From positions 434,001 to 498,000 of the forward strand of contig NZ_LT671417.1 of the NCBI RefSeq assembly GCF_900128445.1: 64,000 bases of DNA, read 5' to 3'. Source of the DNA: Thermophilibacter provencensis (lineage in GTDB: Bacteria; Actinomycetota; Coriobacteriia; Coriobacteriales; Atopobiaceae). Positions 16,669 through 37,986 of this stretch are shown one piece after another. A program made the translations under genes and the position numbers. How positions within the stretch are numbered: the first letter of the stretch is position 1; the number at the start of each line of letters is the position of its first letter. The notes beneath the pieces are model-generated. The model did not search any database, was not told where the DNA came from, and was given only the letters and a program-made list of their open reading frames with translations.

Positions 16669-16710
16669 GCCAGGGGGACGGAGCGGTGACAACTCCTCCG
16701 TCCCCCTGGC
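16669..16710. repeat. Short palindrome, GGGGGACGG type, downstream of purD
   Basis: GCCAGGGGGACGGAG (16669-16683) pairs perfectly with CTCCGTCCCCCTGGC (16696-16710). It lies 9 bases past the purD stop and shares its GGGGGACGGAGCGGTGACAA core with the element inside dciA. It may serve as the purD terminator. Confidence 0.75.
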
Positions 16711-16718
16711 ACGTCACG

Positions 16719-20280: not shown

Positions 20281-20366
20281 CCTGACAAAAGTGACAGGGC
20301 GAAGTGTCATGAGCGGGCGCCGCGCGCCTTCAGTTCATGACACTTCGCCCTGTCACTTTTGTCAGG
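20281..20366. repeat. Palindromic repeat, TGACAAAA type, perfect 32-bp arms
   Basis: Arms 20281-20312 and 20335-20366 are exact inverse copies around a GC-rich 22-base centre. Each arm itself begins with TGACA and ends with TGTCA, so it can also fold alone. It lies between purA (start side) and dnaB (stop side). Confidence 0.9.
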
Positions 20367-21819: not shown

Positions 21820-21896
21820 GGGGCCGTGCAAGGGGGACAGTCACTTTTGCACGCGTTGTTGGCATGCAAAAGTGACTGTCCCCCTTGCACGGCCCC
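21820..21896. repeat. Palindromic repeat, TGCAAAAG type, perfect 32-bp arms
   Basis: Arms 21820-21851 and 21865-21896 are exact inverse copies. The units carry GTGCAAGGGGGACAGTCAC and the matching inverse, with a 13-base centre. It is located upstream of dnaB, 53 bases before its ATG. Confidence 0.9.
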
Positions 21897-27621: not shown

Positions 27622-27688
27622 GGCGTGCAAAGGGGACAGGCACTTTTGCACGGTTGGCGTGCAAAAGTGCCTGTCCCCTTTGCACGCC
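27622..27688. repeat. Palindromic repeat, TGCAAAAG type, perfect 30-bp arms
   Basis: Arms 27622-27651 and 27659-27688 are exact inverse copies around a 7-base centre. It fills the gap between the convergent TRIC-like and typA stops, where it could terminate both. Confidence 0.9.
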
Positions 27689-35190: not shown

Positions 35191-35261
35191 GGTGTGCAAA
35201 AGGGACAGTCACTTTTGCACAAGTTCCTAGTGTGCAAAAGTGACTGTCCCTTTTGCACACC
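35191..35261. repeat. Palindromic repeat, TGCAAAAG type, between gyrB and gyrA
   Basis: Arms 35191-35221 and 35231-35261 are exact 31-bp inverse copies around a 9-base centre. One end lies 3-8 bases from the gyrA ribosome site and the other 14 bases from the gyrB stop, so any hairpin in the gyrBA message would touch gyrA initiation. Confidence 0.92.
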
Positions 35262-37434: not shown

Positions 37435-37986
37435 CTATTTGTCGTGTTGAAGCCGATACGAGGCGCTCATCGCCCGAGAGACGCTTTCACGCAGCGTTGG
37501 GGGGAGCTCCGAGCATGCCCTCTCGATCTCGGCGACCTCAGCGCGTGACAGGGGGACGGGGGCTTTGTCACCGCTCCGTCCCCCTGTCACGCGCGGGTCG
37601 GGTGTGACAGGGGGACGGAGCGGTGACAAAGCCCCCGTCCCCCTGTCACGCGCATATTTGCTCAGGCGAAACTCGACCTTCGAGAACGCGAGTCCGGCGT
37701 TGGCGAGGCGTGCCAGGTAGACCTCGCTGTTTGCCGAGAAGTCCGTGGCGCGTGACCGTGAGTCCACGTAGACCACGAGAACCGGGCCGCTCTCTCCCCG
37801 GCGAGGGTCGCGCACGAACGTCCCCGTGGTGTGCGCCCGCTCTATGTCGCCGTTGACGGCGTGCCACGCGCGCGTGACGCGCCATGACGCGTCCGCCCGC
37901 TCGTCGAACATCGCGGAGAGTATCCCGGAAAGACCGGCGGGGGCCGCCTCCCGGCGCGCTCGCTCGGCGCTCAGCTCATCGGCCAC
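37435..37986 (-). CDS. DciA-like DUF721 protein carrying a translated palindromic repeat
   Basis: A 183-residue protein; ATG 37986 overlaps the recF stop by 11 bases. The DUF721 core is residues 18-110 (LSGILSAMFDERADASWRV, WHAVNGDIERAHTTGTF, AFSKVEFRLSKYA). DciA relatives assist loading of DnaB helicase. Residues about 112-148 are encoded by the 113-base repeat at 37541-37653, after which a helical C-terminus resumes (EVAEIERACSELPPTLRESVSRAM). The frame is intact through the repeat, so the protein is probably made with a 37-residue insert between the fold and the C-terminal helix. Confidence 0.8.
   Translation of the reverse strand: MADELSAERARREAAPAGLSGILSAMFDERADASWRVTRAWHAVNGDIERAHTTGTFVRDPRRGESGPVLVVYVDSRSRATDFSANSEVYLARLANAGLAFSKVEFRLSKYARDRGTGALSPLRPPVTPDPRVTGGRSGDKAPVPLSRAEVAEIERACSELPPTLRESVSRAMSASYRLQHDK
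37541..37653. repeat. Double palindrome, GGGGGACGG type, inside the dciA-like gene
   Basis: First unit 37541-37594 has ends GCGCGTGACAGGGGGACGG and CCGTCCCCCTGTCACGCGC, so it is itself a palindrome. Second unit 37604-37653 is the exact inverse of the first (minus the outer GCGC on one side). The inner words GTGACAAAGC and GCTTTGTCAC mark orientation. This is the clearest palindrome of palindromes and the only copy inside a coding sequence. Confidence 0.92.

Follow-up and report, generated by a model that had tools for sequence, protein, structure and literature searches.

The locus and its palindrome

The window analyzed here is a 64,000-nt stretch of the Thermophilibacter provencensis genome (G000), and positions are those of the window unless a genome location is given. 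It contains the gene order gyrA-gyrB-[dciA-like gene]-recF-dnaN-dnaA, in which the dciA-like gene is interrupted, with no loss of its reading frame, by a near-perfect palindrome made of two 46-nt hairpin units in inverted order. These features, and one further member of the same repeat family in the window, are as follows.

37435..37986, minus strand: dciA-like gene, 183 amino acids, overlapping the 3' end of recF and upstream of gyrB (open reading frame, neighbours, orthologues, Foldseek)
37651..37986, minus strand: KH-like (DUF721) DciA core, residues 1-112, upstream of the repeat (alignment; model pLDDT 66-87 at residues 31-110)
37541..37653, no strand assigned: REP doublet in inverted arrangement (113 nt), whose minus-strand translation gives residues 112-148, ARDRGTGALSPLRPPVTPDPRVTGGRSGDKAPVPLSR (inverted repeats, folding, all-frame translation)
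37545..37590, plus strand: REP unit A, 46 nt, 17-bp stem, 12-nt loop (unit alignment, pair counts)
37604..37649, minus strand: REP unit B, an inverted copy of unit A with identical loop and identical GGGGGC variant (inverted repeats, unit comparison)
37438..37541, minus strand: DciA C-terminal part, with helices at 148-158 and 163-182, which follows the repeat and is still conserved (model; dN/dS below 1)
16671..16713 (G000:C3:450671-450713), no strand assigned: single REP-family unit outside dciA (repeat search)

The two arms of the palindrome (37541-37595 and 37599-37653) are 96% complementary over 55 nt around a 3-nt spacer. Each half is itself a hairpin, for which the inverted-repeat search gives 15-19 perfect base pairs and a 16-nt loop. 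The folding energy of the 113 nt as RNA is -123.5 kcal/mol, against -50.1 +/- 3.6 in shuffled sequences (z = -20). The palindrome begins at offset 333 of the coding sequence, exactly at codon 112, and no stop is met across it. Translation of all frames finds only one of three to be stop-free through the doublet, and this is the same frame in both orientations, so that a nearly identical peptide is encoded either way. A sequence-only reading of this DNA had proposed a self-complementary repeat, translated in frame within a dciA homologue and read similarly in either orientation; the arms, the fold, the uninterrupted frame and the all-frame translation bear this out.

The host gene

The identity of the gene as dciA fits both its gene order and its predicted fold. 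The protein has no Pfam match of its own and is likewise not recognized by NCBIfam, and a sequence-profile search of solved structures found nothing. PF05258 (DciA) is weakly matched by 5 of the 14 proteins in a same-genus alignment, with a best E value of 0.002. A structural model built from five sequences, the window protein and four relatives (pTM 0.43), has Vibrio cholerae DciA (8a3v) as its top Foldseek match, with probability 0.99; Deinococcus radiodurans DciA (7ykm) stands further down the list, among many weak matches. The features of a DciA protein are all found here, namely a KH-like domain, a linker, two helices and a position in the dnaA-gyrA region.

The repeat-encoded residues 114-141 have pLDDT values below 50, and the model predicts this segment to be a disordered linker that joins the KH-like core to two helices at the C-terminus. 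The C-terminal part of V. cholerae DciA has been described both as unstructured and as forming a two-helix hairpin that contacts the helicase (PMC9865707). By analogy, the two C-terminal helices of the window protein may be the corresponding helicase-contacting hairpin. Comparison with the sister genome, Olsenella sp. SW781 (G012, 86% identity), gives dN/dS values of about 0.06 for the core and 0.18 after the repeat, both from small counts. The latter value indicates that the downstream part is still read as protein and, at the level of codon comparison, shows purifying selection on it. It follows that the repeat-bearing gene is probably functional and has presumably retained the role of DciA, and we infer that the repeat is translated in the cell. 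The C-terminal part may be evolving somewhat faster in G000.

The repeat family

In G000 the family numbers about 26 units, distributed over 24 loci. A genome-wide count finds the core 14-mer 25 times and its reversed control not once, which supports a dispersed repeat. Alignment of the units defines the architecture given above for unit A, in which 98.3% of stem cells are paired and 12 are compensatory, compared with 2.8 in shuffles. Together these results show a repeat family with a conserved hairpin, which by its sequence is of REP type and without a protein of its own. Within the genus, matches are found in 18 of 31 genomes at E <= 1e-6. The only Rfam matches were to microRNA hairpin models and fell below threshold, a result that any long perfect hairpin would be expected to give.

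The contexts examined were mostly intergenic, and many units lie directly at gene ends, some of them providing the stop codon. Inverted doublets occur at two loci of G000, the dciA copy and a copy at 2517604, with identical loops within each; most other copies are single. When Pfam was run on ten open reading frames near copies, dciA was the only locus found with conserved coding sequence on both sides. A candidate second intragenic copy, in a GH3 gene (1343688), was rejected since the repeat lies upstream of the likely start, and large open frames over repeats in G019 and G015 were rejected as intergenic or gene-end copies.

An associated transposase

The Y1_Tnp domain was matched at four places in G000. 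One of these is a RAYT gene (G000:C3:1385817-1386599) with PF01797 above its cut-off, for which the best NCBIfam model is NF047646, REP_Tyr_transpos (E 2.5e-19; 69.6 bits, cut-off 80). Units of the same family flank it, one at 1385793 overlapping its 3' end and one at 1386677, 78 nt upstream. This arrangement, judged on sequence, is that of a REP/RAYT system whose units lack the GTAG tag. Seven RAYTs of this clade were compared in other genomes (56-61% identity); three of them, in G021, G029 and G022, are flanked on either side by the REP core motif, an arrangement seen in none of the more distant RAYTs that were examined. Most same-clade RAYTs show one in-frame stop in the matched stretch (loci in G021, G029, G019, G011, G001 and G022), which may reflect either decay or a shorter C-terminus.

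The orthologous place in G018, a genome deposited as O. uli An733, holds 113 nt, against a 958-nt REP-RAYT-REP cassette in G000. An rpiR-type gene has had its end replaced by the cassette and is now read on into the repeat. The C-terminus of this rpiR-family regulator (L086:1374-2675; G000:C3:1384873-1386174) is encoded by the repeat, and its end in G018 is different and free of REP sequence. From its association with the units, the RAYT presumably moves them, and the presence or absence of the cassette and of some units points to mobility of the family. A clean empty site with defined ends was not found among the subset of copies checked.

The linker in related genomes

The sequence-only reading had taken the palindrome to be a clean insertion that adds about 37 residues, and had offered as its test that residues 112-148 should be cleanly absent from relatives. 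The result is otherwise: at the position of the repeat, all 29 aligned same-genus orthologues carry a non-palindromic linker of variable length and sequence, of about 31 codons in the two nearest relatives, SW781 and G018. The net change in length relative to SW781 is only +18 nt. As relatives have linkers of native type at this site, the alignment shows that the doublet replaced the old linker rather than adding to it. The accompanying suggestion that the repeat is tolerated because it lies in a linker agrees with the variable sequence of this segment in relatives and with its predicted disorder.

A recent event unique to this genome is likewise not supported, as SW781 has an apparent decayed unit in the same linker. 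The SW781 linker resembles that of G000, with 0 of 2,000 codon shuffles reaching its global score; the other 28 linkers all gave negative scores in this comparison, and that of G018 has no similarity to the doublet linker. Against the REP unit, the SW781 linker scores 18, and the best remaining background among 928 windows of SW781 DNA is 14.5, a figure that reflects our choice to set aside windows overlapping REP copies and those of locus L158. A score of at least 18 is reached by 16 of the 928 windows, one of which is the dciA linker itself, while most others overlap REP copies found by search. Two of the 16, in the first 133 nt of L158, sit where G000 has a copy at 190968 and are probably themselves a decayed REP copy.

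The SW781 remnant has about two thirds identity to the consensus over one unit, a divergence greater than that at 4-fold sites between the two genomes (21%), and common descent of the linker is therefore probable but not certain. A decayed unit at the same site suggests that the repeat probably entered before the split from SW781. With the unit in SW781 so diverged, the good state of the G000 doublet points to upkeep or renewal, and we infer that exchange with other copies, for example by conversion, has probably preserved or renewed it.

Origin of the repeat-encoded linker

These observations can be combined in a reading that we regard as very probable as a whole, namely that a RAYT-associated REP doublet entered and displaced the dciA linker, was tolerated there, and is probably older than the split from SW781. 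The 46-nt units would depend for their copying or movement on the RAYT, whose gene lies elsewhere in the genome. One unit, or a doublet, would have arrived in the part of dciA coding for the disordered linker that joins the KH-like core to the C-terminal helices, and would have taken the place of most of the native sequence there. It could be tolerated because, whichever its orientation, exactly one of the three frames through the doublet lacks stops, and the Pro/Arg/Gly-rich peptide read from that frame closely resembles native linkers. After entry, the unit would have decayed in SW781, and the G000 doublet would have stayed near-perfect through upkeep or exchange. The order of these events (entry, split, then decay or upkeep) is the one that the comparison of the two genomes suggests.

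The nearest competitor is a variant of this reading, differing only in the route by which the repeat arrived: the linker would have been overwritten through recombination, by gene conversion or template switching with a REP elsewhere and guided by short matching ends, rather than by transposition. We consider this possible but on balance unlikely. The SW781 linker starts with CGCGACAGG and ends with CCTGTCGCG, both of which match REP ends, its length is nearly that of the G000 linker, and the RAYT cassette in the rpiR-type gene likewise replaced its target sequence. The matching ends may, however, themselves be REP relics, and the listed units of G000 include no donor with the same loop and GGGGGC variant, although G009 has a unit that shares this stem and loop. 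An improbable alternative holds that the hairpin is kept for a role in the mRNA of the recF-dciA-gyrB region, such as RNase III processing, attenuation or stabilization, the peptide being incidental. Such a role would suit the extreme folding energy and the much better preservation of the doublet in G000 than in SW781, but translation would open the hairpin, and an intact REP is found in dciA in no other same-genus orthologue.

A clean, recent, in-frame insertion of 37 residues into an otherwise unchanged DciA would account for the near-perfect, young-looking state of the doublet and for flanks that align well to relatives. It is nonetheless very improbable and already largely refuted, as the linkers of the 29 orthologues imply that native sequence is missing in G000 and as SW781 carries the decayed unit. 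That the repeat is an assembly artefact appears extremely improbable. Repeats and palindromes are prone to error, but the main contig is 2.63 Mb long, the palindrome is only 113 nt long and its halves differ, the frame is kept exactly, and the unique flanks are continuous with orthologues on both sides.

Relation to known systems

REPs, REP dimers and REPINs with their RAYTs have been described previously (Bertels and Rainey 2011, PMC3116915; Di Nocera et al. 2013, PMC3733652). The family studied here resembles them in being composed of many dispersed short palindromes, mostly extragenic, with compensatory changes and a flanked Y1 transposase gene, and in including inverted doublets, those at dciA and 2517604, in which two units form one hairpin. 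It differs from classical REPs in its 17-bp stem, 12-nt loop, modest number of mostly single units, and absence of a typical GTAG tag (3 of 48 unit ends). It is nearer to the 'TIRYT' type of Di Nocera, in which RAYT-like genes are flanked by non-GTAG, sometimes self-complementary repeats (PMC3733652).

The sequence-only reading had looked to the Rickettsia palindromic elements, the first families of which are about 150 bp (PMC10969869), and the likeness is that a palindromic repeat is translated in frame within functional genes. However, RPE-4 and RPE-6 belong with the CGTC-tagged repeats, which have an 8-9 bp stem and no transposase associated with them (PMC3733652). The units described here have a 17-bp stem and an associated RAYT, and only 1 of 48 unit ends carries CGTC. 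From these tag counts, the family is neither of the classical GTAG type nor of the RPE-4/RPE-6 type. A closest kinship to Rickettsia elements is not upheld, since the RAYT is flanked by units of the same family and intragenic REPs were already known outside Rickettsia (PMC3733652).

Intragenic REP monomers and dimers occur in several species and phyla, notably in replication and repair genes; in-frame dimers or groups encode 20-30 amino acids, and a REP lying at the end of a gene provides its stop codon (Di Nocera et al. 2013, PMC3733652). The doublet in dciA shares with these its in-frame reading within an open reading frame, a replication gene as host, and relatives at gene ends that give stops. 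It differs in the gene (dciA), the coriobacterial host, the length of 37 amino acids and the replacement of a native linker. It is clearly a further instance of REP repeats lying within genes, which is already a known phenomenon, and does not represent a new kind of element. Neither Coriobacteria nor Olsenella is named in the text of PMC3733652, and a literature search for REPs and Olsenella together found no paper in the collection searched.

The locus adds dciA, presumably an essential replication gene, and the Coriobacteriia to the list of intragenic REPs. It offers a compact case of how a mobile hairpin repeat can turn into protein sequence: the repeat is fresh in one species, seems to have decayed in the sister species and is missing from the next relative. 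That it replaced sequence, and was not simply added, has a bearing on the way REPs move. It could be speculated, although we think it doubtful, that REP/RAYT systems are a recurrent source of disordered linkers, replacing those of DciA and similar replication proteins and then decaying. If so, self-complementary repeats with one open frame would supply nearly the same Pro/Arg/Gly-rich peptide in either orientation and turn into ordinary linker sequence, as the comparison of G000 with SW781 suggests.

Other repeats in the window

A second hairpin family (GGGGACAGTCACTTTTG and variants) is present at 21826-21890, 27632-27678 and 35201-35251; across the genome it has 103 half-sites, compared with 0 for the control. 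Close variants of this family flank a different RAYT gene (G000:C3:216411-217151) on either side, and the two probably form a second REP/RAYT system. A long inverted repeat of another type, AAAAGTGACAGGGCGAAGTGTCATGA ... TCATGACACTTCGCCCTGTCACTTTT, lies at 20289-20358.
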